The notes beneath the pieces are model-generated. The model was given only the letters and a program-made list of their open reading frames with translations. It ran no database searches and was not told the DNA's origin. This document shows, piece after piece, positions 16,290 to 37,490 of a stretch of 37,492 nt of DNA. The translations under genes and the position numbers were made by a program. This DNA is from a virus. The stretch spans positions 1-37,492 of IMG/VR virus record IMGVR_UViG_3300025809_000051; one strand, 5' to 3'. Positions within the stretch are counted from its first letter, which is position 1. Every line of letters begins with the position of its first letter.

Positions 16290-18143
16290 ATGGGAGCAGT
16301 AGTAGAAGTAAAATACTTTAACACTTTTATTCTTAAAAAGACGAATAATCAAGATGAACCAATATGGAATGGGTCTTTTGGTATACCCGAAGATATAGGT
16401 GGTTACGAAAGAGTTTCTTCTTCTGACGACAAAAACTGGGCTATAGAAGAGTCTAGAATACGAGGCGGTTATAACAATACAACAGTCGATTTTGGAGTTA
16501 AAGCTTATATAGTAGAAGAAAAAAATAAAGCTTCTTTTAGATCTAGCTCTTTAATATACTCTGGTATATTTAATTCTAGAACTGGTATTAATCAAACAAA
16601 CGTGTTTTCTGTTGGTGAAGACATAACTAAAACAGCAGATCCAGCTAATGCTTCAATACAGAGGTTATATGCTGAAGACGCAAACTTAGTTATATTTCAA
16701 GAAAATAAAGTATCTAGAGCTTTAATAGATAAAGACGCTATATATAATGCTGAAGGCGGAGGGTCTGTAACATCTACTAATCTTGTTATAGGTCAAATAG
16801 TTCCTTACGCAGGTGAGTATGGTATAAGTAAAAATCCTGAAAGTTTTGCTGTATATGGTTACGCTAAATATTTTTCAGACACAAACAATAACTGTGTACT
16901 AAGGTTATCTAACAGTGGCATAGACGAAATATCGTCTTATGGAATGAAAGATTACTTTAGAGACGAAGTAAATAGAGTAAATACTAATTCAAGCGTTGGT
17001 TTGATAATTGGCGGTTATGACATGCATAATAGTCAATATGTTGTATCTACGCAAGTAGCTAACACAGGTATTAAGTTAGATTATAACACATTGTCTTTTG
17101 ACGAAAACGCTAAAGGTTGGGTTAGTTTCTTTACTTTTAGACCTAGTCAAATATTTAGTATAAATAATAAATTTTACACTACAAACTCAGATGGAGTGTG
17201 GAAGCATTATTCTAACAGTAATAGAGGTAATTTTTATGGCGTAGACAACAAGAGTAAAGTTACTGTTTCTTTTAACGCCGCACCATCTAACTCTAAAACA
17301 TTTAGTACGGTTTCTTATGAAGGCGCTAATGGGTGGATGGTTGACTCTATTGTTTCTGATGAAACAGGAGCTGACACGCAGCCGGTTATAGACTGGAGAT
17401 CTCATTTTGATAGTACTAGTGGTATTTATAGTTATTATGAAGGTGAATTTGTTGAAGCTGCTTCATCTGCGTCTGTTAAACAAACAGTTGCTGGTACATC
17501 AGTATTAATAAGCGCTAGCGTTAATCCTGTTTTAAACTCTAGTGTTTCTGGAACTGGAGTTGTAGCTAACACTACGGTTTCTTCTTATACACTAGTTGAA
17601 GCTCAAGCAATAGATCAATCTGTTAACAACATTGTAACAATCACGTCAACAAGTAGCATTATACCAGCTGGGACTTTTGTTTCTGGAAACAATATACCAT
17701 CAGGAACTTCTGTGGTTTCATTTAATAATTCAACAGGTGAACTAGTACTTAATACGGATGTACAAATAAATGCTGGTGATTTTATAGGTTTCAATAACTT
17801 AGGGATTTTAACAGTCAACAATAGTTGTAGTTTTACTGAAAATACAACCTTAAACTTCGTTAGTGTAACTAGTAGATCTAACTACCAAAGCGTTTTTGGT
17901 ACAGGCAACCCTCAGTTTCCAGTTCATCACGCTGGTTTTGAAAGAAAAGAAAACAAGTACGTAGCAAACTTAATTAACAATAGTTCTGCTAATGACAGCG
18001 AAGTCATTTGGGGTAATTCAATGAGTGGAATAAAAGGTTTTTATGCCTTAGCAACTTTCTCAACAGATTCAACTACGGATCCTGGAGGTGAAAAACAGTT
18101 GTTTCAAGTTTCAACTAATTACAATATAAACAATGGATATTAA
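16290..18143 (+). CDS. Second tail protein, partner of the nozzle protein
   Basis: A 617-residue beta-rich protein. The segment ESRIRGGYNNTTVDFGVKAY near residue 55 is a conserved stretch of tail proteins that follow the 'MNKDLDARI' protein in marine phages. Repeats such as RLYAEDANLVIFQENKVSRAL and KYFSDTNNNCVLRLSNSGID look like propeller blades, as in podovirus nozzle (tail tubular B) proteins. Residues about 390-515 carry the same beta-module pattern seen in the preceding gene (NIPSGTSVVSFNNSTGELVL). The end of the protein mentions no catalytic site. I infer that the two proteins together form the tail tip; which one is the true nozzle is open. Confidence 0.72.
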   Translation: MGAVVEVKYFNTFILKKTNNQDEPIWNGSFGIPEDIGGYERVSSSDDKNWAIEESRIRGGYNNTTVDFGVKAYIVEEKNKASFRSSSLIYSGIFNSRTGINQTNVFSVGEDITKTADPANASIQRLYAEDANLVIFQENKVSRALIDKDAIYNAEGGGSVTSTNLVIGQIVPYAGEYGISKNPESFAVYGYAKYFSDTNNNCVLRLSNSGIDEISSYGMKDYFRDEVNRVNTNSSVGLIIGGYDMHNSQYVVSTQVANTGIKLDYNTLSFDENAKGWVSFFTFRPSQIFSINNKFYTTNSDGVWKHYSNSNRGNFYGVDNKSKVTVSFNAAPSNSKTFSTVSYEGANGWMVDSIVSDETGADTQPVIDWRSHFDSTSGIYSYYEGEFVEAASSASVKQTVAGTSVLISASVNPVLNSSVSGTGVVANTTVSSYTLVEAQAIDQSVNNIVTITSTSSIIPAGTFVSGNNIPSGTSVVSFNNSTGELVLNTDVQINAGDFIGFNNLGILTVNNSCSFTENTTLNFVSVTSRSNYQSVFGTGNPQFPVHHAGFERKENKYVANLINNSSANDSEVIWGNSMSGIKGFYALATFSTDSTTDPGGEKQLFQVSTNYNINNGY

Positions 18144-18161: not shown

Positions 18162-18824
18162 ATGCCAATAGGAGCAGGAGCAGTTATAGGTCTTGGAGCC
18201 TCTATATTAGGTGGCGTTTTTGGAGCTTCGTCTGCCAAGAAAGCAGCGCAAGCAGCAGCTAGAGAGAAGAGACGCTTACAGAACAAGCTAAACAATTTAG
18301 AGAAAAATAGACAAGAAGTTGTAAACCCTTACGAAGATTACACTAGTCTTAGCGGAATGATAACTAATCCTTTCGCCAACCTAGGTGTCGCAACTGGAGC
18401 TGCTGAGATTAAAATTGAAGAAGCTGATATCTCACTAGCTAATACATTAGATACAATGAGAGCTACAGGAGCTGGCGCTGGTGGAGCTACGGCTTTAGCT
18501 CAAGCGGCTTTAAGATCTAAAAAAGGCGTAGCAGCTAGTATAGAGCAACAAGAAAAAGCTAATGAAGACAAAGCAGCTGCTGGAGAGCAAAGAGCTCAAC
18601 AACAAAAGATAGCTGAAGAACAAAGAATGCAGCAAGCTGGCGCTATGGGTAAACAATTTGTTTTTGGTGAAACAGAAAAAAGACAAGTTAAAGAAATGGA
18701 TAGGACTTATGCAGAATTAATGGGTACTGAACAAGATAGAGCTCAAGCTAAAGCAGATCAAACAGGTGCTATAACAGGCGCACTTGGGTCTATAGCTTCA
18801 ATTGGTGGTGGAATGTTAGGATAA
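18162..18824 (+). CDS. Internal virion / ejection-type protein
   Basis: A 220-residue protein. Residues 1-28 are a Gly/Ala hydrophobic segment (GAGAVIGLGASILGGVFGAS), followed by an Ala/Lys/Arg/Gln-rich helical body and a C-terminal Gly/Ala hydrophobic end (GAITGALGSIASIGGGMLG). Hydrophobic glycine-rich ends around a coiled coil are typical of small podovirus internal proteins (T7 gp14-like) that leave the virion and insert in the cell envelope at infection. It sits directly before the very large internal protein, which supports the idea. There is no sequence proof of gp14 homology. Confidence 0.65.
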   Translation: MPIGAGAVIGLGASILGGVFGASSAKKAAQAAAREKRRLQNKLNNLEKNRQEVVNPYEDYTSLSGMITNPFANLGVATGAAEIKIEEADISLANTLDTMRATGAGAGGATALAQAALRSKKGVAASIEQQEKANEDKAAAGEQRAQQQKIAEEQRMQQAGAMGKQFVFGETEKRQVKEMDRTYAELMGTEQDRAQAKADQTGAITGALGSIASIGGGMLG

Positions 18825-18837
18825 TTAAAAAAACAAA

Positions 18838-19932
18838 ATGGAAAAAAACTTAAATCAAAACCTTTTTTTACAGCAGTTTAATGAAAGTGATGCTATAGCT
18901 TACAATGAAGGTTTTACATCTAGCACTAGTGATTATAATTTTCAGCTACTAGAAAATGCGTATAGAAATACTGGTAGAATTTATGCTAAGTTAAAATTAG
19001 CTGTAGACTCTAATAACTGTCAAGATGAAACTTGCGCTTACGAGTTGTCTGAAATTAAGCACCTACAAGAATCTCCACAATTGTCTTTAGATTTTTTATC
19101 TTCTCTTTTAGCAGAGTTAAGTGTTACAGATGATCCAAACTTTGATCCTAACAATAATTTTAAATACACAGCTGCTAACAGTGTTATGACTGCTAAACCT
19201 GGTTTTTCTAAGTCAGATGGTTATAACGTTTATTTAGATTTGCTACCAGGTGGTGCTCAACAAATAGTCTTTATTGGCCCTGCTTTTGAAGAGCCGTTAG
19301 TTATTAACAACACGGCTTTAAATTCTTTAATTGAATCTAACACTTCGCTTGTAGCGCCTACTCCAGACATTAATAAAGATATGTTAAGATTGCTTACCGA
19401 GGTTGGTGTATTTTCTCCTGATATGGTTGGTGAAAACGGAGAGCTAACAGCTGGAGCTAAAATAACTGAAGAATATGTGATTATGAATCCTGATGGTTCT
19501 TTTGATTACGAGATCATAGACATTGGAAATGGAAAAGGTAGAAATACACTTAAATACGATTTAGATAAAATCGAAAAGAAAGTAACTCCGTTTATAAACG
19601 CTGAGGTTGCTGGTTTAATGAGCTCTGAGCAAGACGCGGTTGCAGCTTGGAACGTTTATATATCTAAAGGTACAAGTGTTGAAGAGGACGATCAGATGGT
19701 GCAAAACGCTAATGCTGGCGATAGTTCTTGGAGCTACACAGAAGACTTGCCACTTATGCAAGATAAAAAAGTTTTATTTGAAAAGAAATATAAAGAATAC
19801 TTTATGAATAATTATCTGAAACAATTTACTACGAACCAGTTTCCTACGGTTCAGGCAGACGCTGCGGTGTTTGATTTAGCTGAAGCTAAAAAAGCTAAAG
19901 CTCAAAAGTTTATTGACGATAATAACCTATAA
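18838..19932 (+). CDS. Unknown protein between internal virion genes
   Basis: A 364-residue acidic protein. Residues about 1-100 are helical (LQQFNESDAIAYNEGFTSST, then ENAYRNTGRIYAKLKLAVDS), residues 100-170 look beta (GYNVYLDLLPGGAQQIVFIG), and the last ~50 are helical and Lys/Ala-rich (FDLAEAKKAKAQKFIDDNNL). Two cysteines (NNCQDETCAYE) might pair or bind metal. I do not recognise a family. Flanking genes make a virion-associated role likely. It has an A-rich leader (aattaaaaaaacaaaATG) and ends 10 bases before the giant gene. Confidence 0.65.
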   Translation: MEKNLNQNLFLQQFNESDAIAYNEGFTSSTSDYNFQLLENAYRNTGRIYAKLKLAVDSNNCQDETCAYELSEIKHLQESPQLSLDFLSSLLAELSVTDDPNFDPNNNFKYTAANSVMTAKPGFSKSDGYNVYLDLLPGGAQQIVFIGPAFEEPLVINNTALNSLIESNTSLVAPTPDINKDMLRLLTEVGVFSPDMVGENGELTAGAKITEEYVIMNPDGSFDYEIIDIGNGKGRNTLKYDLDKIEKKVTPFINAEVAGLMSSEQDAVAAWNVYISKGTSVEEDDQMVQNANAGDSSWSYTEDLPLMQDKKVLFEKKYKEYFMNNYLKQFTTNQFPTVQADAAVFDLAEAKKAKAQKFIDDNNL

Positions 19933-19942
19933 ATTTAATTAA

Positions 19943-22900
19943 ATGCTGTTAATAGAAAAAGTACAGGAATTACAAGCAATTCAACCTTCTCTTGATCCCA
20001 AAGAAATGAAAAGAAGGATTGCAGAATGGAAGAAGCAAACTAGTTATAAAGCGCCAGAAGCAATAGAGATTGAAGAGGTAAAGATAGAAGACTCCCCGGA
20101 AAAAAAGGATCCAAACGAGGAGTCGCAAAACAACACAGGGTCCGATCTTTCAGATTCTGGAAATGGAAAATCAGTATCAAAGAAATATAATTTTTTAGAT
20201 TTATTAAAACCAAAAGATAATTTTAATTTCGGGTTTAGTCAGCCAAAATTTGATAAAGATTTTTTTAATAGAAAATATAAAAGTCTTACAGGTTATAACA
20301 TAGATGATCTAGAACCTGATGAAGTTTTTAAAGGAGAAGGTGGTTACGAATATAAATATAAACTAGGAAAATCCAAAGATGGAAAAGCTCCTATGAATTT
20401 TTATGTAAAAAAACCTGGTGAAGAAGGATTTATTGATTTAACAACTAAGTACAATAAAATATTAAAAGAAGATCCTGAATTTAAGATAGAAAAAAATATA
20501 GAATTTGCTAATTCATATGCTTCTATTTTATCTGAAATGGGTTATTTACCTGAAGATGTTAAAAAAGATGTTATAGCTCAGCAAGAAAAAATTAAGAAAA
20601 AAAATGCTGAAATTAAAGCTTTTAACGAAAAACAAGACACTAGTAGATTATACAACGAGAGAGGATTAGAAAATTACAACAATAGAACAAGTCTAAACCA
20701 GGCTCCTAATTTTTATAGAATAGAAGAAGGTGAAACAACTGTTCCTGAGTTTTTTAACATGCCAGTGCCTACGCCTGAATCATACGAATACTATATTAAA
20801 ACATCTGAGATGGCTGGTTTTATGTACGGGATTGATGGTGCTACTTCAAAAGATAAAGCTTTAGCGCTTATAGAATATGAAGATTTAGATTTAGAATTTC
20901 CTTTTTTATATTTTAAAGATAGCCAAAAACATAATAGTCAGCTAAAAGGTTATGATAAAAACCTACTAATAAATAAATTTGGAGGAGTTAAAGGACTTGA
21001 GCAAATAGGTGTTAATTCAGATGATTTTTTAGGTTTTATGCTTTATAAAGGATTTGCTGGAGACATAGTTGAGGCTGAACAAAGTGGTAAATTTAAAGAT
21101 GAGCCTCTTATGTTTCAAAGACAGATGCAAGATTATGTAAATTTCTACATGCAGGAAATGGATCATAGATACAATACTAAGCAAAAAATGCTAGATGTTA
21201 TATATGATAAAGATGGCAAGTACGAAGAATACAATATAACATCTAGTACTCCAAGAGCTATGTCTTTAAAGCTTCCTGAATATGGAAAAAGTGAAGCTAA
21301 AACTATTTTTGATTACGGCGCTTATGAAGCTTATGCTTCTGTTTTATTTCCAGATGCTTTCGCAAAAGACAAGGAATATTTAGCTGAAAAAATAAAATTT
21401 AATAATACTTTAGACAATAGGGGTGATGCTTCTTCTAAGTTATATGCCACGGCAGAAGGTTTAAAAAATATACCTGTAGCTTTTTATGAAGAAGCGTGGG
21501 GCTTAAAAAATTGGGTTTCTGATGTTGTTGGTGCAGATGATATTGCTGATAGAGGAAGAGGTAGACTAGCTGAAATAAACAGAAGAAGAGCTTCTTATCA
21601 AACTTATACTAATTTTTACGGCCCTACTTTAGAAATAGAAGGTAAAACTTATGCTATAGACAGAGACGATAAAAATGAAATCCTATGGAATGTAGATGAA
21701 GGTTACTCAGTAGTTGGTGATGCTTCTTATATACAAAAACTAACTGAAAGAGTAAAAAAAGAAGGTAAGTTTAAAAATCATAAAACTTTTAGAGGATATA
21801 CTACTCAAGGAGGAACAGTCTTTGGTAGCTTATTGCTTCAAGTAGTTGGTACAAAAGGATTTGGTACAGCTTCAAAAGGGTTAAGATTAACAACTGGAGC
21901 AGCGCTTAATGGCTTTGGGCTAAACGTTGCTAAGTATAAAAGATATAAAGATCTAGCAACTGCGATAGGTGGATCACCTGCCTCCAAGCTTAAGCTACCT
22001 ATAAAAACTTCTACAATAGACAATATAATGTTTCAAGGCATGTATGGAGCATATACAGGTCACGAAACTATATTGTCAGAATCATTAGGCGCTGGCTTAA
22101 ACCAAGAAGAGGCACAAGAGCTTGCTAACACAGGGTCTTTAGCTTACGGCGCTTGGTATGCAGCCACTGGACCTATTAACAATAAAGGAGGTTGGTTTGA
22201 TGATATTATAGGTAAAAGAACTCTTCAGAACACAGTAAAAAGAGCCATAGGTAAATATAAGTCTGAAGGCTACAATGGTTTTATGAATTCTTTTCAAAAA
22301 TCATTGTTAAAACTAAGTTCAAAAGCTTCTAAGTTTGTAGAACAAGGTTTTGGAGAAACTGTTCAAGAAAATACACAGCAGTCTGGAGAGGCTTTAATAA
22401 ATAGATATTTAAATTATAAATTTGATGTAGATTTTTTAGATGATACTTACACGAAAGCCGAAGTAGAGACTACTTCTGGATTATCTTTTGTTACAGCAGG
22501 AATAATGAGTGGTATTAAAATACCTAACTTTAAAGGTAATTCTAAAAACAATTTATTAGATTATCAATATATAGGAGAAAATGCCACTGAAGCTGAGAAA
22601 ATAGCTTTAAAATTAGTAGAAAACGGTTTAGCTACGCAGCAAGATGTTACAGATATGTTAGAAAATGCTAAAGCTGTAACAAATCAAACACCTAGAATAC
22701 CTAAATGGTTAGATGATAATCTTACTTTTGATGTAGCTAAGTTAATGCAAGAAAGACAAAATCTAGAAAACTCTAAAAAAAACATAGACAAATCTTTTCA
22801 TCAAAATATAGATGATAGAATTGAAAATATAAACTTAGAGATTGACGGTTATGTAAGACCCGCTGCTGATGAGCAAAGAGCTAAGCTGCAAACTGGTGTA

Positions 22901-25900
22901 GAGAATTTTCTTAATAAAATTAGAAAAGCAAAAGGCAAGGTTGATATGGTAGAATTTGATACTACAGCCGAGGCTAATGCTTATAGACAAGAGTTATTAG
23001 AACAAGGTGGCAACGTAATGCAGTCTGATAACTATGGTGATATGGTTATTACGGGAGAAGGTAATAAAATTCTTATAGTAGATAATCAAATAAACACTGA
23101 AGACAACGTAGTTACAACAGGTGTTCACGAAGGTGGTCACTTTGTTCTTTCAGAAACAGTTGATCAAGATCCTGACGCTGCTAAAAAACTAGGTAATGCT
23201 TTAGTGGACGAAATGTTTGAAAACGAAAATGTTACTATAAAAAACAATAACATAAATAGAAGACTAGCTGGATATGCTTCGCAAGGTGTTACTACTCCTG
23301 TTATGATGGAGGAAATAATGATGATGGTTAGCGAAGGTTTAATAAATGGTGACATAGAGTTTAATGAAACATCTAAAACTAAAATAGGTGATTTAATAAG
23401 AAGAACTCTTCAAGATGTTTTTGGTATTAAGATAAAGTTTAAGGATGGTGAATCTGTATTAAACTTTTTAAGAGATTATAATAGAACTATAGAAACTCAA
23501 AGAGGTGGAAAAGCCATAGCTAGAGTAGCCACTGAAGGAGCTAAAGTAGATATAGCGGATCCTGGTATTGAAGCCGCTAGAAAAGTAGGTAGAGTAACAC
23601 AAGAAGTTGACCCAGAAACAGGTGAAATAGTTGAAACTGAAATAGTGCCTAAACCAGAAGTTGAAGCTAAACAAAGTCAAAGAATAGATGAAACTGAAGA
23701 AACTCCTGAACAAGCTATAGAGAACAAAGAGCTAATGAATAAGATTGTTGAGGGAGATATTAGTGCCGCAGGCACACTTGTTCAAAAAAACGCTGGCTTA
23801 ATACTACCATTGTTAAATTTTAATCCAGATATAACCACACAGAGTGGAGTAACATCAGAAGACGTGTTGCAGGCTGTAACAGACATGATGACACCTGGTA
23901 TTGTTGATATAGTTTTCACTAAAGAAAAAACAGGTGAGCAAAGAAATAAATCACTAGCAGAAGAATACGCTAAAGAAAAAGGTGAAGTCAGTACTTTTTT
24001 AGGAAGACTGCGTTTTAGAAAAAAAGAAATATACACAGCTGCAGGACTTGATCCTAATAAATTTAATCTAGTTGCTATTGATTCTTCCACTAAACAAATA
24101 GTAGACGAAGGATCAGACCCTAAGCCTAAACCAGAAAAAGAAGTAGCTACTACTCAAGTAGATCCAAGAGAGTTTGGACCTGTTACCGAAGGCAATAAAC
24201 TTAAAGACGTAGAGGGTATAGTTAAAGTAACTGACAAAGAAAGGTTAACATTTAAAAAATTAGCTTCTAAATACTTTGATAAAGTATCACAAGCACTATT
24301 TGGCATGCCTGGTAAAAAAGTAAAAGGCAATGTTAGTTTAAAGTACGCTGATGTTAAAGGTCAACCTAGTTCTTCTGAGGCTAGCAAGCTTCAAAATGTT
24401 TTTAAAAATGTTGAAGACGTTAGAAACTTTATAAAGGCTATGCCTCCTTACAATGTTGCTACGAGTCAAACAGTAATAGATAGACAGGGTAAAAAAGTAG
24501 ATGTTTCTAAAGATGTTAGAGGTAGATCTATAGCTATAAATCCTACAATATTAAAAAAGTTTTATCAACCAGTTACTAGAGCTATAGAGGGTATATCAGA
24601 CAGAAGTGGTAGAAGTTTAGGTAGTACAAGTCAAACTCAAGTGTATGAATTAAAACCAGAATATAGACGCAGAATAACAAAAGAAACTATAGAAGGTTTA
24701 CAAAAAAGTCTTGGCATTACTAAAGGAGAATTAAGCGTACCCATAAAAGGACCAGCTAGAACAGAGTTTGGTTCTCTACTTACTGGACTTTCTAAGATGT
24801 ATGTAGATAATCTTATAAACACTGTAGGTAGGTCTAAGCTTACTACGGATCAAGCTAAAGCAGATACTGGGGCTGGTAAGAGTAAAGCTATGGCTAGTAA
24901 GCGAACACAGGAGCTAAACTGGAAAGAAACAGACGAAGCTATAGTGGCTTCTTTTAAAATAGGTGATAGAACTTATAAAACAACTCTAGAAGAAACCGCT
25001 TTTATGGAATTTGACGAAGGTCAAACCTACCAGGACATAGAGGATATAGCTAAAGATTTAGATATACTTGAAGACGCAGAAGGAGACCCGATAGAAAGTT
25101 CTGAGAATTTTTACCATCTAGAATTTGGAGATACTGAGCTTGGAAAAGGTATAACAGGTAAAGGTAACGCTTTTGAAGTGTTCACAACTACCATGAACGG
25201 TGTTGTAGATTACTTAAAAGCTAATCCAAGAATAGAGGGAGTTGTTTTTACAGCTAAAGAACCTAGTAGAATTAGGTTATATAAAACCCTAAGCCAAGTG
25301 TTAGCTGGTAAACTTAATGGCAGCTCTGGTTTTAAAAACGACACATTTATTGTGTCAACTAAACCTGAAAAGATTAGCAAGCCAAGATCTATGGCCAGTA
25401 AGCGTATAACCGAGGAGCAAAAAAGTAAAGGTATAAAAGATCAAATCCATCAAGATTCTGGTAAAAGTTTAGTATCTAAAACCTTAAGTTTATTAACAAG
25501 AAAAGATGGTGTAGCCGCGGGGTTTGGAAACGCCACGTTAACTTTTATAGCAACTCCTTTTAATCTATCATCTGGTGGTAATTCCGCAAGACGCAACTAC
25601 TTAGCTATAACAGACGCTAGTTTAACCAGAGATAAAGATCGGGTTAAAACTGAAAAAGCTTTAAAAGAAGGTATGGTTTTTGACTTGAGTAAAGTTAGAA
25701 GTAAAATAACTAATTTAGGTTTATCTAATTCAGGACCTCAATTTACCACTGATCAGTTGAAAGAAATGAGTCTAGTCGCTAAAGGCGGTAGTAGATCTTC
25801 TATAGCTAGAAATAAAGAGAAATTTGAAGCTTTAATTAACGGTAAAAATTCACTTTACGACGGTTTTTATAAAGCTTACGATGCAAATCCTGAGGCTAAT

Positions 25901-28900
25901 TTACCTGGATTAAAACAAATAATATATCCAGCAGATCAATCTTCAAACGCTACATTAGGTAGAAAAATGGCTACAGCAGCTAATGATTCTAATAAAGGAG
26001 ATAAAGTACCATACTTAGAGCATTGGTTTCCATATGGACAATGGGCTTTAACTACTATTTCTACTTTTGATATGCCTCAAGCCTCTAGAGATGCCTGGAA
26101 AAAATGGGCTAATGAACATTATTATCAAGAGAATATAAGTTCACAAACTCAAACAGCGGTAGACAAAACATACACGGTAAAATTAGAAGATGGTACAGAA
26201 GTTTCTTGGAAGTCTAAAGATCAAAACCATCCGCTTCTTGAAGAGCAATTGAGCAAGTTTAGAGAAACAGGAGATGTTAAGTACTTAAATGAAGCTAGTA
26301 GACTTTCAGATATAAGAAAATACCCTGGAGTACACACTGAGGTTAATCCATTTGTCCACGGTAGATATAATGTCACTGACGCAGCTAAGTATGGAATAAA
26401 AGTTTCTCCAAGCTTGCAATCTAATTTAGAGGTGCAACACGAAGCTAGTGCTATTATACATGAGGTTATAGTTGGTAATATAACAGAGATTGAAGCTCAA
26501 GAAAGAATAGAAGCTTTTATTTCTATAGCTCCTGGAAAGTCAATGGCTTCAAAACGTGACAGCGATTTAATTCCTGACGCTATAAAATATGACAGACCTA
26601 TAACTGTGCAAACAGCTATAAACGCTTTAGAAAAAACTGATAAAGCCTTAGCAAACGGTAGAAAACTAGATCAACCTGTTAAGAAAATTAGAGTGTTTGA
26701 TTTTGATGATACATTGGCTAGAACTAAAAGCAATGTGTTATACACAATGCCTGATGGAACTACTGGAGCTATTGACGCTGCTACATTTGCTAAAGAAGCA
26801 GGTAACATGGAAGCTGAAGGAGCTCAATGGGATTTCTCTGAGTTTAGTAAAGTAATGCAAGGAAGTAAAGGACCACTATTAGATGTAGCTAAGATTATAG
26901 CAGACAAACGTGGAACTAAAGATGTGTTTGTTTTGACGGCAAGACCTGCAGATGCAGCTGGACCAATTAAAGAATTCTTAGCTAGTATGGGATTAGATAT
27001 TCCACTTGCTAATATCACTGGTTTAGGTGATGGAACTCCACAGGCTAAAGCTGGTTGGATTATGGGTAAAGCAGCTGAAGGTTATAACGACTTTTATTTT
27101 GCAGACGATCACACAGGAAATGTTAAAGCAGTTAAGGATGTACTTAGTCAAATAGATGTTAAGTCTAAAGTTCAATTAGCAAAAGCTAGTAAAAGACAAA
27201 CCTTTGATACTGTCGTAAATGATATGATCGAGGATTCATCTGGTATTGAAGCTTACAAAAAATACTCTGCAGCTAGAGCTAAAACAGTTGGTGCTAGCAA
27301 AGGCAAGTATGCTTTTCTTATTCCACCATCTGCTGAAGACTTTACAGGTTTACTATATAAGATGATAGGTAAAGGTAAAAAAGGAGATGCTCAAATGGCT
27401 TTCTTAAAAACCAATTTACTTGATCCTTATAATAGGGCTGAGTCCGCTGTTACACAAGCTAAGATATCTGCTGCAAATGATTTTGTAGCTTTAAAAACAA
27501 AACTAAAAACATTACCTAAAACCTTAAGTAAAGAAACTGGTATTGGTAAATTCACTTATTCTCACGCAGTGCGTGTCGCTGCTTGGACTAGACAAGGTAT
27601 GACTATACCTGGTCTTTCTAAAAGAGATGTTAAAGAGCTAAATGATTTTGTAAACAAAGACGCTAAGTTAACAGTTTTCACCGACGAGCTTATTAAAATA
27701 CAAAAAGGTAAAGAATATCCAAAACCTGGTAAAGACTGGTTAGGTGGTAATATCACTACAGATATTATTGGTGGTATTAACAAAGTTAATAGAGCTGAAT
27801 ACCAGCAAGAGTGGAGAGAGAACATCGACATTATATTCTCTGAAGATAATATGAACAAGATGGAAGCTGCGTACGGAACTAGATGGCGTGAAGCTATGGA
27901 AGATTCTATACGTAGAATGAAATCTGGTAGCAATAGACCAATCGGAGGTAACAGAGTGACAGAAGGATTACTTAACTGGTTAAACAACTCTGTTGGTGCT
28001 GTAATGTTCTTAAATACAAGATCTGCGTTACTACAAACTATATCTGCGGTAAACTTCATAAACTTAGGTGATAATAATATAATAAAGGCAGGAAGAGCGT
28101 TTGCAAACCAAAAACAATTTTGGGGTGATTTTATGACGCTTATGAATTCTGATTACTTAGTAGAACGTAGAAACGGTCTTAAGATCAATGTAAGTGAATC
28201 TGAAATTGCTGATGCTGTAAGAGAATCTAAGAACAAACCTAAAGCAGCTATTGCTTTCTTACTTAGCAAAGGTTTTGTTATGACTAGATTCGCTGATAGC
28301 TTCGCTATTGCGTCTGGTGGTTCTACTTTCTATAGAAATAGATTAGAAGCTTTAAAGAAACAAGGTTTAAGCGATGCTGATGCTGAGACGCAAGCTTTTG
28401 AAGATTTTAAAGCTATAGCAGAAGAAAACCAACAGTCTAGTTCGCCTAGTAAAATTAGCCAACAACAAGCCTCTGCTGCTGGTCGTGTAATACTTGCTTG
28501 GGCAAACACTCCAATGCAGTATGCTCGTATACAAAAACGTGCTGCACAAGATCTTATAAATAAACGAGGCGACTGGAAAAGCAATGTATCTAAAATAGTT
28601 TACTATGGTGCTATTCAGAATTTAATATTTAACTCACTGCAACAAGCAGTATTTGCTTTAGGATTTGGAGATGATGAAGAAGAAACCGACGAAGCAAAAG
28701 CTAAGAAAAGAAATGACAAAGCTTACGAGGTTGTCAATGGAATGATCGATTCTCAACTTAAAGGTTTAGGTATATTTGGAGCAGCAAGTGTTGCTATTAA
28801 AAATGCGTTAATAACTCTTTATGAAGAGCATGGTAAGAAAAGTCCTAAATACGAAAATGCAATAGATGATTTACTAAGCTTTTCACCACCTCTTGGGTCT

Positions 28901-29362
28901 AAAATTAGCAAGATAAAAGGTGGATTGAGAAGTTTTAGCTGGAATATGAAGGATATGAAAGAGAAAGGCTTTAGCTTAGATAACCCAGCTTATATGGCGG
29001 GTGCTCAAGTTGTAACTGGTTTTACCAATATTCCACTTGATAGAGTTATGAAGAAAATAAACAACTTAAGAGGTTTAGTAAACGAAAGATCTTCACTTTG
29101 GCAAAAAGTAGCTTTAGGTCTTGGATGGGCAACTTGGGAATTAGGTCTTGGATATTACGGTGGTTGGGATAAAAAAGAACCTTTAACACCTAAGCAAGAA
29201 TTGCAACTTAAGGTTGATAAAATGAAGAAAGACACTAACAAACCTGATCAAGTTAAAACATTACTAGATTTTGGATTAACTAAAAAGCAAATTAGAGAGC
29301 TTAAAAACGAAAATAATAGAGTTAAAAAAATATTAGAACTGCAAAAAAAAGATAAGAAATAA
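19943..29362 (+). CDS. Giant polyvalent-type virion protein (zincin + HAD + phage C-module)
   Basis: A 3139-residue multidomain protein of the polyvalent type carried into cells by phages and conjugative elements. Seen in order: a charged low-complexity N-terminus; hydrophobic Gly-rich region ~616-860; a zincin-like site HEGGH at 1062-1066 with a candidate third ligand E1123/E1124; a helical segment ~1271-1373 weakly recalling sigma region 2 (KGEVSTFLGRLRFRKKEIY); a domain ~1715-1810 with FTAKEPSRIRLYKTL; and a HAD hydrolase ~2248-2410 (D2253-FDDT, T2332, K2369, D2388/D2389). The C-terminal phage module (~2590-3100) includes MFLNTRSALLQTISAVNFIN and LLSFSPPLGSKISKIKGG. ASKR motifs at 1651, 1817, 2201 and 2415 fall at domain edges. 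A role in ejection and early takeover is inferred. No RNA polymerase DxDGD motif is present. Confidence 0.85.
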   Translation: MLLIEKVQELQAIQPSLDPKEMKRRIAEWKKQTSYKAPEAIEIEEVKIEDSPEKKDPNEESQNNTGSDLSDSGNGKSVSKKYNFLDLLKPKDNFNFGFSQPKFDKDFFNRKYKSLTGYNIDDLEPDEVFKGEGGYEYKYKLGKSKDGKAPMNFYVKKPGEEGFIDLTTKYNKILKEDPEFKIEKNIEFANSYASILSEMGYLPEDVKKDVIAQQEKIKKKNAEIKAFNEKQDTSRLYNERGLENYNNRTSLNQAPNFYRIEEGETTVPEFFNMPVPTPESYEYYIKTSEMAGFMYGIDGATSKDKALALIEYEDLDLEFPFLYFKDSQKHNSQLKGYDKNLLINKFGGVKGLEQIGVNSDDFLGFMLYKGFAGDIVEAEQSGKFKDEPLMFQRQMQDYVNFYMQEMDHRYNTKQKMLDVIYDKDGKYEEYNITSSTPRAMSLKLPEYGKSEAKTIFDYGAYEAYASVLFPDAFAKDKEYLAEKIKFNNTLDNRGDASSKLYATAEGLKNIPVAFYEEAWGLKNWVSDVVGADDIADRGRGRLAEINRRRASYQTYTNFYGPTLEIEGKTYAIDRDDKNEILWNVDEGYSVVGDASYIQKLTERVKKEGKFKNHKTFRGYTTQGGTVFGSLLLQVVGTKGFGTASKGLRLTTGAALNGFGLNVAKYKRYKDLATAIGGSPASKLKLPIKTSTIDNIMFQGMYGAYTGHETILSESLGAGLNQEEAQELANTGSLAYGAWYAATGPINNKGGWFDDIIGKRTLQNTVKRAIGKYKSEGYNGFMNSFQKSLLKLSSKASKFVEQGFGETVQENTQQSGEALINRYLNYKFDVDFLDDTYTKAEVETTSGLSFVTAGIMSGIKIPNFKGNSKNNLLDYQYIGENATEAEKIALKLVENGLATQQDVTDMLENAKAVTNQTPRIPKWLDDNLTFDVAKLMQERQNLENSKKNIDKSFHQNIDDRIENINLEIDGYVRPAADEQRAKLQTGVENFLNKIRKAKGKVDMVEFDTTAEANAYRQELLEQGGNVMQSDNYGDMVITGEGNKILIVDNQINTEDNVVTTGVHEGGHFVLSETVDQDPDAAKKLGNALVDEMFENENVTIKNNNINRRLAGYASQGVTTPVMMEEIMMMVSEGLINGDIEFNETSKTKIGDLIRRTLQDVFGIKIKFKDGESVLNFLRDYNRTIETQRGGKAIARVATEGAKVDIADPGIEAARKVGRVTQEVDPETGEIVETEIVPKPEVEAKQSQRIDETEETPEQAIENKELMNKIVEGDISAAGTLVQKNAGLILPLLNFNPDITTQSGVTSEDVLQAVTDMMTPGIVDIVFTKEKTGEQRNKSLAEEYAKEKGEVSTFLGRLRFRKKEIYTAAGLDPNKFNLVAIDSSTKQIVDEGSDPKPKPEKEVATTQVDPREFGPVTEGNKLKDVEGIVKVTDKERLTFKKLASKYFDKVSQALFGMPGKKVKGNVSLKYADVKGQPSSSEASKLQNVFKNVEDVRNFIKAMPPYNVATSQTVIDRQGKKVDVSKDVRGRSIAINPTILKKFYQPVTRAIEGISDRSGRSLGSTSQTQVYELKPEYRRRITKETIEGLQKSLGITKGELSVPIKGPARTEFGSLLTGLSKMYVDNLINTVGRSKLTTDQAKADTGAGKSKAMASKRTQELNWKETDEAIVASFKIGDRTYKTTLEETAFMEFDEGQTYQDIEDIAKDLDILEDAEGDPIESSENFYHLEFGDTELGKGITGKGNAFEVFTTTMNGVVDYLKANPRIEGVVFTAKEPSRIRLYKTLSQVLAGKLNGSSGFKNDTFIVSTKPEKISKPRSMASKRITEEQKSKGIKDQIHQDSGKSLVSKTLSLLTRKDGVAAGFGNATLTFIATPFNLSSGGNSARRNYLAITDASLTRDKDRVKTEKALKEGMVFDLSKVRSKITNLGLSNSGPQFTTDQLKEMSLVAKGGSRSSIARNKEKFEALINGKNSLYDGFYKAYDANPEANLPGLKQIIYPADQSSNATLGRKMATAANDSNKGDKVPYLEHWFPYGQWALTTISTFDMPQASRDAWKKWANEHYYQENISSQTQTAVDKTYTVKLEDGTEVSWKSKDQNHPLLEEQLSKFRETGDVKYLNEASRLSDIRKYPGVHTEVNPFVHGRYNVTDAAKYGIKVSPSLQSNLEVQHEASAIIHEVIVGNITEIEAQERIEAFISIAPGKSMASKRDSDLIPDAIKYDRPITVQTAINALEKTDKALANGRKLDQPVKKIRVFDFDDTLARTKSNVLYTMPDGTTGAIDAATFAKEAGNMEAEGAQWDFSEFSKVMQGSKGPLLDVAKIIADKRGTKDVFVLTARPADAAGPIKEFLASMGLDIPLANITGLGDGTPQAKAGWIMGKAAEGYNDFYFADDHTGNVKAVKDVLSQIDVKSKVQLAKASKRQTFDTVVNDMIEDSSGIEAYKKYSAARAKTVGASKGKYAFLIPPSAEDFTGLLYKMIGKGKKGDAQMAFLKTNLLDPYNRAESAVTQAKISAANDFVALKTKLKTLPKTLSKETGIGKFTYSHAVRVAAWTRQGMTIPGLSKRDVKELNDFVNKDAKLTVFTDELIKIQKGKEYPKPGKDWLGGNITTDIIGGINKVNRAEYQQEWRENIDIIFSEDNMNKMEAAYGTRWREAMEDSIRRMKSGSNRPIGGNRVTEGLLNWLNNSVGAVMFLNTRSALLQTISAVNFINLGDNNIIKAGRAFANQKQFWGDFMTLMNSDYLVERRNGLKINVSESEIADAVRESKNKPKAAIAFLLSKGFVMTRFADSFAIASGGSTFYRNRLEALKKQGLSDADAETQAFEDFKAIAEENQQSSSPSKISQQQASAAGRVILAWANTPMQYARIQKRAAQDLINKRGDWKSNVSKIVYYGAIQNLIFNSLQQAVFALGFGDDEEETDEAKAKKRNDKAYEVVNGMIDSQLKGLGIFGAASVAIKNALITLYEEHGKKSPKYENAIDDLLSFSPPLGSKISKIKGGLRSFSWNMKDMKEKGFSLDNPAYMAGAQVVTGFTNIPLDRVMKKINNLRGLVNERSSLWQKVALGLGWATWELGLGYYGGWDKKEPLTPKQELQLKVDKMKKDTNKPDQVKTLLDFGLTKKQIRELKNENNRVKKILELQKKDKK
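24881..27196 (+). repeat. Four dispersed (M/K)ASKR boundary motifs
   Basis: The giant protein contains KSKAMASKR (M1650), PRSMASKR (M1818 by direct count, 1817 from nucleotide 25391), GKSMASKR (M2201) and LAKASKR (A2415). In the DNA, the ATG codons lie at 24890, 25391 and 26543, and the fourth copy's GCT at 27185. The synonymous codons differ between copies (gctagtaag, gccagtaag, gcttcaaaa, gctagtaaa), so this is conservation at the protein level, not a recent DNA duplication. The copies bracket the PSRIRLY domain and the HAD domain. Confidence 0.7.
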
Positions 29363-29670
29363 TGGCAAAAATAAACCCTAAAACAGCTAAAGCTATGTAT
29401 AAAGCTACTAGCGAAGCTAATAAAGAAAAAATAGCTCAAGAACGCTACGGTGAGTTTGGCTTTGATACTTTAACATATGATCAGCAGCAAGAAGTTTATA
29501 AAAACCATCCTAAGCTACTTAAAAGTGAAAAAGATAAAGGATCTGATTTTGAAGGCCCTTTAAGTATGTTAAAACCTACTTCTCCTTTTAGCAAAAGCCG
29601 TTGTTGGAAAGGTTACAAACCTGTTCCAGGAAAAAAAGCTTATAGTAAAGGTAGTTGTGAAAAAATTTAA
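29362..29670 (+). CDS. Small basic protein with C-terminal CWKGY...GSC motif
   Basis: A 102-residue Lys-rich protein whose ATG overlaps the giant gene's stop by one base. The first half is helical (KTAKAMYKATSEANKEKIAQ). The end, SPFSKSRCWKGYKPVPGKK followed by a second Cys (KGSCEKI), is a compact Cys/Gly/Lys motif I recognise as recurring in small marine-phage proteins, of unknown function. The embedded 'SPF' echoes the MSSPFQ tag of downstream genes. Coding is well supported by the tight junction on both sides (the next start lies 2 bases after its stop). Confidence 0.65.
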   Translation: MAKINPKTAKAMYKATSEANKEKIAQERYGEFGFDTLTYDQQQEVYKNHPKLLKSEKDKGSDFEGPLSMLKPTSPFSKSRCWKGYKPVPGKKAYSKGSCEKI

Positions 29671-32283: not shown

Positions 32284-34005
32284 TTAACCATCACAAGCTA
32301 AACAATCTTCGTTCATTGCTTGTTGTGCTATATCTCCTCGTAGCACTGACTCTGTTCTCGTATAATACAAAGTCTTAACTCCTTTTTTCCAAGCTTCATG
32401 GTGTACTTTATTAAGCCATTTAGGCGTTGCTTCACTAGGAAAAGCTAAATTCAAACTAACTGACTGATCTATATACTGCTGTCTCAGTCCAGCTTGATTA
32501 ACTAACTCTAATTGATTAATCTCCTTAAACGTCTTAAATACTTCTTTCGCAGGGATTTCGTGTGGCCCAACAGTAACCTCATCAAGCTCAGGCAGATCTT
32601 GAACACTACCACCATCCGCGAGAATTTTATTCCACGTATCATTATTATTTATTTTAAGTTTTCTTAATAATTTAAGTAATGTAGGATTTTTTCTTATAAA
32701 AGTACCTTTAGCCGACTGTTCTGTAAATACATTAGCAGCCCAAGGTTCTATACCTGCACTTACGTTTCCAGAGAGCTTACTGTTAGAGACAGTAGGAGCA
32801 ACGGCGCGCAAATGAGTGTTGCGATAACCAGTACCAACACACCACAAAGGCTCACCATAAGTTTCAGCAAGCGCCATGGAAGCTCTTTCGCTTTCAATTT
32901 TAATTTGCGAAAATATCCTCCTAGTTTCAAACTGAGATAATAAACCTTCGAAAGGAATACCCTTCTCTTGTAAGTAAGTGTGCCAGCCGAGGACTCCCAG
33001 TCCCAATGCTCTCCCTTTCTGTGCAGATCGTATAGAATTCTCGAATCCGCGTAATCCTTTCGCTCTTTGAATAAATTCTTCCATAACACCGTCAAGAAAC
33101 CATATGGCGTCGTAAATAAGGTTAGTGTTCTTCCATTCTTCATATTTTGCTAGATTTAATGATGATAAACAACATACAAAGCTGTGGTTTTCATCTGTGT
33201 GTAATGTAATTTCTGAACATATGTTTGTCATATGTACTTTTAACCCGTTTTCCTTATATGCTTTTGGATTTGCTTTGTTAACATTCCCTTTAAACATAAT
33301 ATACGGTTCTCCAGTTGCTTTTCGTTTTCTAAGTAATTTACTCCATCTAGTTCTAGCATCCGCATCTCCTTGTTCAAGGCGTCGCATAAACTTATCACCC
33401 ACAATTGCACACTGATGTAAATTAAGCGATTGTCTGTTGACATCTCCTTTAGGTTCTCTAATCTCAAGCCATTCTTCGAAATCATCGTGTTCAATATTGA
33501 TGTTAACCGATGCTGCTCCTCTTCTGACTGATCCTTGATTAGTAGCAAGAATTGTGCTATCATAGATTTTGCAAAAAGGTACGACTCCGTCTGATGTTCC
33601 ATTACCTGTAATTTTAGCGCCAGCGGGTCTAATTTGATTAACTCCGATACCAACTCCACCGCCGTGCTTAGCGAGTAGCATCATCTCTAAATTTTTCTGT
33701 CCTATGTCTTGTATACTATCAGCAACATCGATACCAAAGCAGCTAATAGGCAAACCACGATCAGTGCCGGTATTAGATAATACTGGACTCGCAAGGCAAA
33801 GCCATCCGTTCCAAATATACTCGAAGAAAGTTTCTGCCATTTCCGGCTTATATAATCTACGAGCAACTGTTTTACTGACGCGCATGTATGCTTCTCTAGG
33901 TGACTCTCCGTCAAATAAATATCCCCCGGATATTGTCTTCTTGTATACGTCCGTATCACCCCACGTAGGGTAATCTTCTCCTTTTTTCCAATTTTCATTC
34001 CACAT
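32284..34005 (-). CDS. nrdA: Ribonucleotide reductase large subunit, class I
   Basis: A 573-residue catalytic subunit that reduces ribonucleoside diphosphates to dNDPs using a radical delivered by NrdB. Active-site residues are all visible: C89 in PISCFG (E. coli C225), N261-x-C263-x-E265 in TNICSEI (N437, C439, E441), C279 in CLSSLNL (C462), the radical-transfer pair Y547-Y548 in LYYTRTES, and the C-terminal shuttle CLAC (C568, C571). It is ~190 residues shorter than E. coli NrdA: the N-terminal ATP-cone is missing, so feedback shut-off by dATP through that cone should not occur. The start is fixed by the upstream stop abutting its ATG. It is the last gene of the - strand operon. Confidence 0.95.
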   Translation of the reverse strand: MWNENWKKGEDYPTWGDTDVYKKTISGGYLFDGESPREAYMRVSKTVARRLYKPEMAETFFEYIWNGWLCLASPVLSNTGTDRGLPISCFGIDVADSIQDIGQKNLEMMLLAKHGGGVGIGVNQIRPAGAKITGNGTSDGVVPFCKIYDSTILATNQGSVRRGAASVNINIEHDDFEEWLEIREPKGDVNRQSLNLHQCAIVGDKFMRRLEQGDADARTRWSKLLRKRKATGEPYIMFKGNVNKANPKAYKENGLKVHMTNICSEITLHTDENHSFVCCLSSLNLAKYEEWKNTNLIYDAIWFLDGVMEEFIQRAKGLRGFENSIRSAQKGRALGLGVLGWHTYLQEKGIPFEGLLSQFETRRIFSQIKIESERASMALAETYGEPLWCVGTGYRNTHLRAVAPTVSNSKLSGNVSAGIEPWAANVFTEQSAKGTFIRKNPTLLKLLRKLKINNNDTWNKILADGGSVQDLPELDEVTVGPHEIPAKEVFKTFKEINQLELVNQAGLRQQYIDQSVSLNLAFPSEATPKWLNKVHHEAWKKGVKTLYYTRTESVLRGDIAQQAMNEDCLACDG

Positions 34006-34284
34006 TTATGATAAATATAATATTGTGTAGGCTATTGCTACGTTTAAATTAACTGCTACTAAGTTCCATTGTTTTGCTACAAATACTTGAGGTATTGATA
34101 TAACACCTGCTATAATATATGTAACGATTCCAGTTTGATCCGGTAATAAATGGGGAGACATCATCATAAATGCCGTCCCCATATATCCTAATCTACTCGA
34201 TAATCTTTCCACTGGCGTCAGCTTCTTCTGCCTTACCAGATTCTTCAACCATTTTCTTCTTAAGGTCTTCGATCGCCTGTTCAT
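34006..34284 (-). CDS. Small two-span membrane protein
   Basis: Up to 92 residues. Two hydrophobic spans are evident, about 50-63 (TGIVTYIIAGVISIPQVF) and 73-91 (NLVAVNLNVAIAYTILYL), linked by 'PQVFVAKQWN'. Proline-glutamine in a helix break recalls PQ-loop transport proteins, but two spans are too few for a full carrier. The longest frame overlaps the preceding gene by 92 bases; the basic N-terminus before residue 31 may be read-through, and ATG at 34182 (MGTAFMMM) or a non-ATG start near the overlap are alternatives. It abuts nrdA. I recognise similar proteins near nrd genes of marine phages without known function. Confidence 0.6.
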   Translation of the reverse strand: MNRRSKTLRRKWLKNLVRQKKLTPVERLSSRLGYMGTAFMMMSPHLLPDQTGIVTYIIAGVISIPQVFVAKQWNLVAVNLNVAIAYTILYLS

Positions 34285-34432
34285 AGTCGTCCATTTGTTT
34301 AATTGTTTCTAATGTTCCTACAGCTAGATCTTTTAGATAAGCTGTTTCATCTAATAGTTGTTGTACTACACCAATTAATGCTTGTACTTTTTTTTCTAAT
34401 AGATCTGTTCTACTTTGTTTACTACTTTTCAT
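34193..34432 (-). CDS. Small coiled-coil protein
   Basis: A 79-residue helical protein with heptad-like spacing through LLEKKVQALIGVVQQLLDETAYLK and a Lys/Glu-rich end. It lies 38 bases after the nrdB stop and its end overlaps the membrane-protein frame. Similar short coiled coils ('LRDLA-GTLETIK' type) recur in marine phage nrd operons; their function is not known to me. It may be an oligomerisation or reductase-associated factor, a guess based on place only. Confidence 0.6.
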   Translation of the reverse strand: MKSSKQSRTDLLEKKVQALIGVVQQLLDETAYLKDLAVGTLETIKQMDDYEQAIEDLKKKMVEESGKAEEADASGKIIE

Positions 34433-34470
34433 ATAAGTCTTTGTATATTTCTTCTTCTGTTATTAATATT

Positions 34471-35439
34471 TTACCAGATGTCTTCGAAGTCTTCGCCTTC
34501 GCCAGCTTTTGAGTAATCAGTTGGCCTAGTTGCGAAAAAATCAGTATGAGTGACCCCGCCGGTAAGATGATAGAACCAATCAAGATTAGCTGCTGCTTTA
34601 GTGTCATACGCAAAATACGATCCCAAGTCAACATAGCCAAGTTCCACAAGTTTTTCATTTGTTCTCTTTTTTATAAAATGTTTCAAATCATTTGCTGATA
34701 TACCTTCGATATCACCCATCTCAAACATTTTGTCAATATATTTAGTTTCTAATTTAATCATTGTTTCCGCAGCTTTTATTATATCTTCTCGACATAAGTT
34801 TAGCAATTGGTTGTTTTCACTGCACATATCGCGGAATAGTTTACAACCCATTTTACTATGTAATGATTCATCTCTTACAGACCATTTCATTTGCTGTCCA
34901 ATGCCTTTAAGCAAATTGCGTAACTGAAAAGAATACAGCACTGCAAAAGCAGAATACAAACTAACTCCTTCAGCGAACGCAGAGAATACAGCAAGTGATT
35001 TAGCAATGCCGATTGGATTATCACCATCGTAAGCAACAAGATTATCAAAACGCTCAGCCGTAGCAGGCTCATGTAAAAATGCTTCATAGTCTTCAAGTTT
35101 TAATGTTTCATTTAAATAACTGTAAGCAACAGCGTGTATTGTTTCTTGTGACCCAAACATCATAGCCATTTGCTGTATCTCGTGTTTAGGAAACCAACCA
35201 ACTACTTTCTGCGTCCAATAATCTGATACCGCGCATTCCGTCTGTGCAAAGCCGAGTAAAATGTTACCGACCAGGTTTTTTTCTTTATCATCTAATTTTT
35301 CGTTCCAATCTTTAATATCGCTCTGCATTGAAATTTCAGTGTGTAACCAAAATGCTTGAGCTTGTTTTAACCAACCTTCTGTGTAGTAGTCAGGGTACTC
35401 AAAAGGTTTGTATGCTATTCTTTCGTCAAATAATCCCAT
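34471..35439 (-). CDS. nrdB: Ribonucleotide reductase small subunit, class I
   Basis: A 322-residue ferritin-like radical-generating subunit, partner of NrdA. Metal ligands by position: E68 (in QTECAVSDYW, where E. coli R2 has D84), E99 and H102 (QETIHAVAY), E157 (FAEGVSLY), E191 and H194 (RDESLHS). The tyrosyl-radical site Y106 is present, at the same +7 spacing from E99 as E. coli Y122. Glu in place of the first Asp is shared with some class I subtypes that use other metals, but these usually lack the Tyr, so a standard radical is the simpler reading. The C-terminus (EDFEDIW) is the acidic tail that docks to NrdA. It overlaps the upstream small gene by one base. Confidence 0.95.
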   Translation of the reverse strand: MGLFDERIAYKPFEYPDYYTEGWLKQAQAFWLHTEISMQSDIKDWNEKLDDKEKNLVGNILLGFAQTECAVSDYWTQKVVGWFPKHEIQQMAMMFGSQETIHAVAYSYLNETLKLEDYEAFLHEPATAERFDNLVAYDGDNPIGIAKSLAVFSAFAEGVSLYSAFAVLYSFQLRNLLKGIGQQMKWSVRDESLHSKMGCKLFRDMCSENNQLLNLCREDIIKAAETMIKLETKYIDKMFEMGDIEGISANDLKHFIKKRTNEKLVELGYVDLGSYFAYDTKAAANLDWFYHLTGGVTHTDFFATRPTDYSKAGEGEDFEDIW

Positions 35440-36485: not shown

Positions 36486-36822
36486 TTACTTCAATGTCTT
36501 TAACTATATCATTTAAAACAGTATCTAAAGCGTGATCTTCATCATAATGCAAACCATCGTTACCGTTTTGACCAATGATATTATTTCTATTAATCATAGC
36601 CTGTTCAATCTCATCTGACAAGCATCGTTTAGCAGCTTCAATGTATAGCAAAGCATCCATAAGCTCTTCTTGAACATCGATTAAAAATCTATTAAGATCT
36701 TTTTCCTCACCGACTATTTCTTGCATCATTGTAGCTCCGTACTTTTCCTGACCAATGATACTACGCTGATCCATTTTCTTGAGTACTGCTAGTACTATTT
36801 CATCTTTAGTGTCTATCTTCAT
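36466..36822 (-). CDS. All-alpha NTP pyrophosphohydrolase-like protein
   Basis: A 118-residue helical, acidic protein. The core SIIGQEKYGATMM, then FLIDVQEELMDALLYIEAAK with E52, E53 and D56, resembles the ExxD helices of MazG/dUTPase-type all-alpha pyrophosphohydrolases that hydrolyse (d)NTPs to NMP. Its location directly after a MazG-domain gene in an nrd operon supports a role in dNTP pool cleaning. Only the first helical pair is convincing; the Asp/Glu-rich C-terminus (DEDHALDTVLNDIVKDIEVNE) is unlike known members. It may be a MazG-like partner without activity. It is chained to mazG by TAATG. Confidence 0.65.
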   Translation of the reverse strand: MKIDTKDEIVLAVLKKMDQRSIIGQEKYGATMMQEIVGEEKDLNRFLIDVQEELMDALLYIEAAKRCLSDEIEQAMINRNNIIGQNGNDGLHYDEDHALDTVLNDIVKDIEVNEETTL

Positions 36823-37490
36823 TACAATGTTTGTTTTACAAATGTTCCATTTTCCATTTTACCCTTACGGTTAGCTATTTCTTGATATGCTGATTCAATA
36901 CAACTTTCAATTTGCATACCTTCAAGCACAGCTAAGTTCGTAAGAACTACAACCATATCGCCAATAGCATCTTTTATTTCATACTTATCGTTCTTAAGCA
37001 ACGCTTCAGCTAGTTCACCAGCTTCTTCCATAAGCTTAACATATTGTGTATGTGAATTACCTTTATCATAAATACCACGCTCTTGAGCCCAGTCTCTAAT
37101 TAAAGGAAAATAATTAGTTAAATTAACCTGTTTTGGTGGATTATGATCTTGATTAAAAAAGGCTTCATAAAAAGCCTTGTTGTAAATATAGCTTCGATTA
37201 TCGTTAAACATCGAGGTTCTAGCGTTAGCTAATATCCAAGGTATATGCTCTCTTTCTAGCTTAAAATTATATTCTGGTGTTTTCCACTCCATGCCTAAGT
37301 TGTCTATAAGATTACCTTTTAGTTTATTAATTGGCACTGGAAATGTACTTGTTTGTTCTGTTGGGTTTACTTTCATATTTAATTTGAATAGATTTTTATA
37401 TAATGTTCTGTCTCTTTTGTAGCCATAAGACTTTTGAAGTTCTATTTCACGGTCTGATATATAATCTATATCGTCTGACTGTTCAAGAAC
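36822..37490 (-). CDS. mazG: MazG-domain protein, N-terminus outside window
   Basis: The C-terminal part is a MazG nucleotide pyrophosphohydrolase: E117, E118 and E121 (KLMEEAGELAEALL) and E133/D136/D140 (EIKDAIGDMVVVL), counted from the ATG at 37376, bind the metal that splits (d)NTPs or (p)ppGpp-like alarmones. The 116 residues before it are unrelated and may be a fused partner domain. The frame stays open upstream of that ATG to the window edge (ELQKSYGYKRDRTLYKN...), while the two other frames meet stops early. So either the protein is longer than 184 residues or the ATG is the start with A/T-rich leader. First gene of the - strand operon seen here. Confidence 0.8.
   Translation of the reverse strand, partial: VLEQSDDIDYISDREIELQKSYGYKRDRTLYKNLFKLNMKVNPTEQTSTFPVPINKLKGNLIDNLGMEWKTPEYNFKLEREHIPWILANARTSMFNDNRSYIYNKAFYEAFFNQDHNPPKQVNLTNYFPLIRDWAQERGIYDKGNSHTQYVKLMEEAGELAEALLKNDKYEIKDAIGDMVVVLTNLAVLEGMQIESCIESAYQEIANRKGKMENGTFVKQTL

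Follow-up and report, generated by a model that had tools for sequence, protein, structure and literature searches.

The locus described here raises the question of what a bacterial virus does with a protein of 3139 residues, and of how so long a chain is organised. The window, by which we mean the whole stretch of DNA analysed, is a record of 37,492 bases from a marine bacterial virus, and its longest open reading frame is the gene of this giant protein (19943..29362; all features are on the plus strand unless stated otherwise). As an earlier note on this DNA had claimed, the 3139 codons form one real and intact frame, with an ATG start and no internal stop. The window encodes terminase, portal and head proteins, a muzzle, the giant, and then lysis genes. 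Terminase and portal have their closest match, at 64% and 50% identity respectively, in a Manatee Spring podovirus, followed by Flavobacterium elemo phages and the Cellulophaga phages phi38:1 and phi18:3, and TerL and portal are syntenic with the Manatee Spring and Flavobacterium/Cellulophaga podoviruses. The third gene before the giant (16290..18143) encodes a product whose C-terminal domain is that of crAss muzzle proteins (PF25729). It is followed by the gene of a 220-aa protein resembling T7 gp14 (18162..18824; a weak match with E 0.0012, below the cut-off) and, between this gene and the giant, by that of a 364-aa protein at the T7 gp15 position (18838..19932). Muzzle homologues were found in 78, gp14-like proteins in 77, and the 364-aa protein in 57 of the loci examined; in most loci, this last gene is kept ahead of the giant. 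The order of muzzle, gp14-like protein, third gene and giant corresponds to the gene order of the ejection proteins in T7 (gp14-15-16), crAss phages and Schitoviridae. Downstream, a 102-aa gene (29362-29670) overlaps the stop codon of the giant and has homologues in only five loci; the tail of its product, SPFSKSRCWKGYKPVPGKKAYSKGSCEKI, is distinctive, with two Cys, and itself includes FSKS. The opposite strand (32284-35439 and 36822-37376) carries the large and small subunits of a class I ribonucleotide reductase and a MazG-like pyrophosphohydrolase. Known defence families gave no match.

Relatives of the giant are numerous. At least 582 stretches in an IMG/VR scan encode relatives of its last 987 residues, 80 of which were kept for analysis, and most intact relatives are single open reading frames of 2,350-3,350 aa. 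An assembly chimera is ruled out by the 582 relatives and the many intact single-ORF homologues. Domains were counted by iterated HMM searches in a set of 94 proteins, consisting of 80 IMG/VR and window proteins, three giants of cultured phages and 11 proteins from MAG contigs. A C-terminal helical module was present in 91, a HAD phosphatase domain in 89, a zincin in 80, the C-terminal part of what we call the E-H/R domain in 39, and a helical domain at residues 1264-1386 in 24 of these proteins, with the remaining segments in 5-10 proteins each; the set was recruited by the HAD/C-terminal region, and the near-universality of that region is thus partly by construction. The same region is about 50-84% identical to the window, as compared with 10-38% elsewhere in the protein, and the N-terminal parts are mosaic among relatives, the zincin excepted. 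A scan of bacterial genomes gave matches only on MAG contigs with mixed taxonomic labels, which are probably mostly binned phage.

The N-terminal 960 or so residues (19943..22822) are poorly conserved. No family was identified for the segment 616-860 that the earlier note had singled out; HMM searches found relatives of the Gly-rich stretch with ETVQENTQ at residues of about 600-880 in just 8 of the 94 proteins. The zincin-like metallopeptidase domain follows at residues 1003-1200 (22949..23542), with HEGGH at residues 1062-1066 (23126-23140) and the partner glutamates EE at 1123-1124, all conserved in the alignments. HExxH is kept in 78 of the 80 zincin-bearing proteins, the exceptions being L054 and L055. 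An AlphaFold model predicts a helix, three strands, the HExxH helix and a Glu-bearing helix, which is the element order given for the metallopeptidases of polyvalent proteins (PMC5512222), and HEXXH with a downstream Glu in the following helix, in a succession of a helix, three strands and two helices, is what characterises zincin-like metallopeptidases. A Foldseek comparison of the model with the PDB returned no zincin. The zincin-like site proposed before is thus upheld by its conserved residues and predicted topology, and not by a structural match to the PDB.

The next segment, the helical domain of residues 1264-1386 (23732..24100), had been likened to sigma region 2. If it were a genuine sigma-70 region 2, it could redirect the host RNA polymerase at entry, and its predicted helical character and a conserved TYL...R..EI do look like region 2 by eye; however, none of 20 members gave a sigma match in Pfam (E up to 5), and none was found among PDB sequences (E up to 10). 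We consider a sigma function very improbable: the domain family with its 24 relatives is real, but the label finds no support. Residues 1440-1640 (24260..24862) form a function-unassigned domain that occurs in 8 proteins. The subsequent "PSRIRLY" domain (residues 1655-1810; 24905..25372) is real, and its AlphaFold model has a beta-alpha-beta-alpha-beta topology. Its best Foldseek neighbours in the PDB are GNATs, including AtaT, KacT and AAC(6'), at probabilities of 0.6-0.9 and weak E-values of 0.1-1, and a profile spanning zincin to GNAT gave no PDB sequence match. Topology and neighbours point to a GNAT-like fold and thereby to a predicted acetyltransferase. In the relative L108, a GNAT-like domain (residues 1306-1429) lies between HAD and C-terminal module, with KFSK before it. 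The E-H/R domain of the window protein (residues 1835-2190; 25445..26512) has an invariant Glu-His and a distant invariant Arg; family searches gave no consistent match, and it is possibly an unrecognised enzyme.

The HAD domain (residues 2226-2410; 26618..27172) is no stray addition to these proteins: only two of their parts are nearly constant, and it is one of them. It carries the DxDx[T], T/S, K and DD motifs and the Rossmann-like fold of the superfamily, and its seven catalytic residues (D2253, D2255, T2257, T2332, K2369, D2388 and D2389) are invariant in 46 of 46 aligned members; DxD[DG]T is kept in 85 of the 89 proteins with the domain. Pfam assigns the region to DUF2608/HAD, and the identification as a HAD hydrolase is confirmed by these family matches, the catalytic motifs and the predicted fold. 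What it acts on can be judged from its neighbours. The most frequent and strongest match is PHROG 415, "polynucleotide kinase", which was obtained for 31 of 41 members, and the best PDB fold neighbours are class C acid phosphatases (Foldseek probability 0.90, weak by its E of 0.21), one of which is listed with bound 5'-AMP; a PDB sequence match was not obtained with the HAD profile. These matches tip the balance slightly towards nucleotides or nucleic acid, and the enzyme would then most likely remove phosphate from nucleotides or nucleic-acid ends. A phosphatase of proteins, sugars or other compounds is a serious, somewhat less probable alternative, to which LHPP among the fold neighbours and the weak matches of six members to a phosphoheptose isomerase PHROG would conform, whereas the PHROG 415 matches and the 5'-AMP-bound neighbour would not. 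The substrates of both the HAD and the GNAT-like domain are guesses from fold neighbours. Distant members have lost the HAD: L113 retains only a remnant, with a GNAT-like domain ahead of it, and L114 and L117 have no HAD match. Insertions after HAD motif I of about 200 residues occur in L029, L035, L038, L048 and L102, and a shorter HAD insertion of about 46 residues is seen in L020, L021, L022, L034 and L065.

The second nearly constant part is the all-helical C-terminal module (residues 2420-3080; 27200..29182), which had also been recognised from the single sequence and which the alignments of relatives and fold matches bear out. The two AlphaFold models had mean pLDDT values of only 67.7 and 66.3. 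Compared with predicted viral proteins, the C-terminal model first retrieved close environmental homologues (E to 5e-58), and then, at 10-14% identity, large-polyvalent, ART-PolyVal, MuF-C and N-acetyltransferase-annotated proteins; E-values were 1e-7 to 5e-4 for the large polyvalent, ART-PolyVal and MuF-C proteins, and 4.5e-3 for a T7-type internal virion protein D. The PDB structure search with the helical module and the search of its profile against PDB sequences were both empty. We think that the module probably serves as a packaging or ejection anchor. In L009, L013, L016 and L018, the last 50 or so residues of the giant are duplicated at the C-terminus.

These observations suggest what kind of protein the giant is. 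It combines several unrelated enzyme domains (zincin, GNAT-like, HAD) in one chain and is mosaic among relatives, as is typical of polyvalent proteins, a class that is defined by architecture and does not require a named polyvalent domain; Pfam polyvalent models gave no match to the giant at E<1. Presence in virions and injection are probable. No phage carrying the HAD/C-terminal module turned up in the collection of cultured phages. Virion presence is argued from position, because the cultured giants in the same slot have no detectable sequence relation: in neighbouring families these measure 1,691-3,859 aa, and homology to the window giant was not found for those of phi38:1, phi18:3, elemo and Manatee phages, tblastn included. 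The sole counterpart detected by mass spectrometry, phi18:3 gp123, is annotated from virion MS/MS in this slot and is among those unrelated in sequence. The earlier proposal of an injected polyvalent protein thus gains from architecture, C-terminal fold and position after the muzzle, and gains nothing by sequence from gp123. An internal virion protein of purely structural function, which would form a core or ejection channel and use its enzyme-like domains for assembly instead of sending them into the host as effectors, would likewise occupy the slot of T7 gp16 and match internal virion protein D. However, the catalytic residues of HAD and zincin are kept while neighbouring modules are swapped, which is the pattern of an effector, and the fold matches are mainly to polyvalent proteins; we therefore regard a purely structural role as improbable. 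We prefer to see the giant, with a probability of roughly 0.6, as a polyvalent protein that the virion ejects, encoded by a podovirus with relatives among Bacteroidota phages.

In the window protein, a short motif is found four times, each time at a domain seam: MASKR at residues 1650-1654 (24890..24904), 1817-1821 (25391..25405) and 2201-2205 (26543..26557), and KASKR at residues 2414-2418 (27182..27196). The corresponding seams of relatives carry the same motif or KFSK, KFSL, KASKK, KYSK or KQSK, the fourth site being nearly universal, with KFSK, KYSK or KQSK in relatives, and a short and degenerate consensus is [KRM][AFYQ]S[KR]. KFS[KR] or ASK[KR] occurred 127 times versus 27 expected from shuffled proteins, a count that includes one homologous site. 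The motif precedes the start of the HAD in 28 of 90 cases (random 3.5) and that of the C-terminal module in 65 of 91 (random 3.7), and it follows the E-H/R domain in 22 of 39, whereas no enrichment was seen between the zincin, 1264-1386 and 1440-1640 segments. Directly after the motif, which sits 1-3 residues ahead of it, comes the GNAT-like domain in the window, L020, L021, L113 and L108, in differing architectural places. Compared with random expectation, 3.6 times as many ends of pairwise homology blocks lie no more than 15 aa from a motif, and the sharpest breakpoints of swaps, those of L026, L065 and L021 versus the window, are at motifs. L026 matches the window protein at 93% identity as far as residue 1654 and again, at 62%, from residue 2198 onwards, and both limits lie exactly at motifs. 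An origin of the motif from a repeated DNA sequence is ruled out, since codons differ between sites, both among the four window motifs and among relatives, where 18 MASKR copies have 14 codings. C-terminal of the zincin, there are 1.49 motifs per 1000 aa, as compared with 0.32 N-terminal of it (4.6-fold), and the flavour of the motif agrees modestly within a protein (32 of 51 versus 23 expected, p 0.008, uncorrected for phylogeny). Our data show that the motif is a protein-level signal at exchangeable seams.

What the signal is used for is less certain. Processing of polyvalent proteins by zincins has already been proposed (Iyer et al. 2017, PMC5512222), and the seam motif is a candidate processing site, although we would put cutting there at somewhat below even odds. 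Cleavage by the zincin of the giant itself is a rather doubtful refinement, and a cut in cis cannot be general, because L069, a full-length relative with no HExxH anywhere, has several good seam motifs, and the zincins of L054 and L055 have no HExxH. In view of L069, the protease could also act in trans or come from the host, or the chain may not be cut. If the motif is not cut, the protein would be one working chain, and the motif could be a short linear element or a linker across which modules can be exchanged, or it could bind portal, chaperone or DNA during threading. We take this reading seriously, at somewhat less than even odds too, as the motif is short and degenerate and present in L069, as the zincin-bearing N4 vRNAP is packaged and delivered uncut (PMC5512222), and as ejection is thought to require partly unfolded chains (PMC10172136). 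It sits less well with conservation at the protein and not the DNA level, with the concentration of motifs C-terminal of the zincin, and with the precise spot just before the GNAT-like domain. A bolder and rather unlikely extension is that the family represents true phage polyproteins with their own cleavage-site code, in which [KRM][AFYQ]S[KR] marks both the release of injected effectors by an early-acting protease and the recombination seams, comparable to polyproteins of eukaryotic viruses.

According to the preferred explanation of an ejected and processed polyvalent protein, the head would hold the giant, which would leave it as a threaded chain before the DNA and refold in the cell, by analogy with T7, N4/DEV and crAss001 (PMC10925440, PMC10172136). 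The C-terminal module would package, anchor or thread the protein through portal and tail, and the N-terminal part would enter the cell first. The segments between would be enzymes for the first minutes of infection, namely the zincin, the GNAT-like acetyltransferase, which would act on protein or aminoacyl-tRNA, the E-H/R domain and the near-obligatory HAD, and this cargo would be swapped by recombination at seams bearing the basic/serine motif. A protease, with the built-in zincin as first candidate, would cut at the motifs during assembly or after delivery, so that individual enzymes could be released; about five pieces would result, which are residues 1-1650, the GNAT, the E-H/R domain, the HAD and the C-terminal module.

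Zincin processing has been proposed since 2017, and in the open-licence literature examined we found neither a cleavage site nor any description of a motif at which such proteins are cut between domains. A motif that flanks modules, together with hundreds of environmental relatives, now turns this idea into a concrete and testable prediction. The motif is also a practical rule for splitting such giants into domains that annotation tools miss, and the near-constant HAD points to a common early-infection need in these marine phages. The kind of protein and the processing idea are known, whereas the near-constant HAD partner and the seam motif were not found in PMC5512222, an absence in open-licence literature that is weak evidence. 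In its text, "phosphatase" and "haloacid" do not occur, and "HAD" has three word-start matches, of which those displayed are the verb; the HAD fusion, suspected before to be an undescribed combination, is thus not mentioned in the founding paper on polyvalent proteins.

Among known systems, the giants of elemo and of the Manatee Spring phage MW202828 occupy the same slot, are of similar size and contain HExxH, but homology to HAD, C-terminal module and motif is undetectable. T7 gp16, or internal virion protein D, shares the position after a gp14-like and a middle gene and the weak C-terminal fold match; in contrast, the window giant has no lytic transglycosylase match, is more than twice as large and carries enzyme cargo. 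In crAss001, the cargo proteins gp45-gp50 have a comparable order after the muzzle (muzzle-cargo1-cargo2-RNAP proteins), and giant cargo passes through the tail (PMC10172136), but the crAss giants are RNA polymerase-associated, and a sequence link was not found. The ejection proteins of Schitoviridae include an RNA polymerase of about 3,400 aa (PMC10925440), and these virion polymerases of N4/DEV (gp50/gp71, about 3,400-3,500 aa) resemble our protein in size, as the largest gene of the ejection operon, in the zincin (HELVH at 2228 in N4) and in the C-terminal part, which is required for packaging and which we count as a likeness. The difference is their T7-type RNA polymerase, a domain that had no match in the window giant; N4 vRNAP also has one KFSRK and no motif array, and no array is present in DarA, DarB and DdrB of phage P1. 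While the near-constant HAD and the repeated seam motif of the window family were not found in the description of polyvalent proteins (PMC5512222), the latter share with it the very large multi-enzyme chain, the place in the virion gene block, the zincin, the GNAT-like domain and the mosaic composition.
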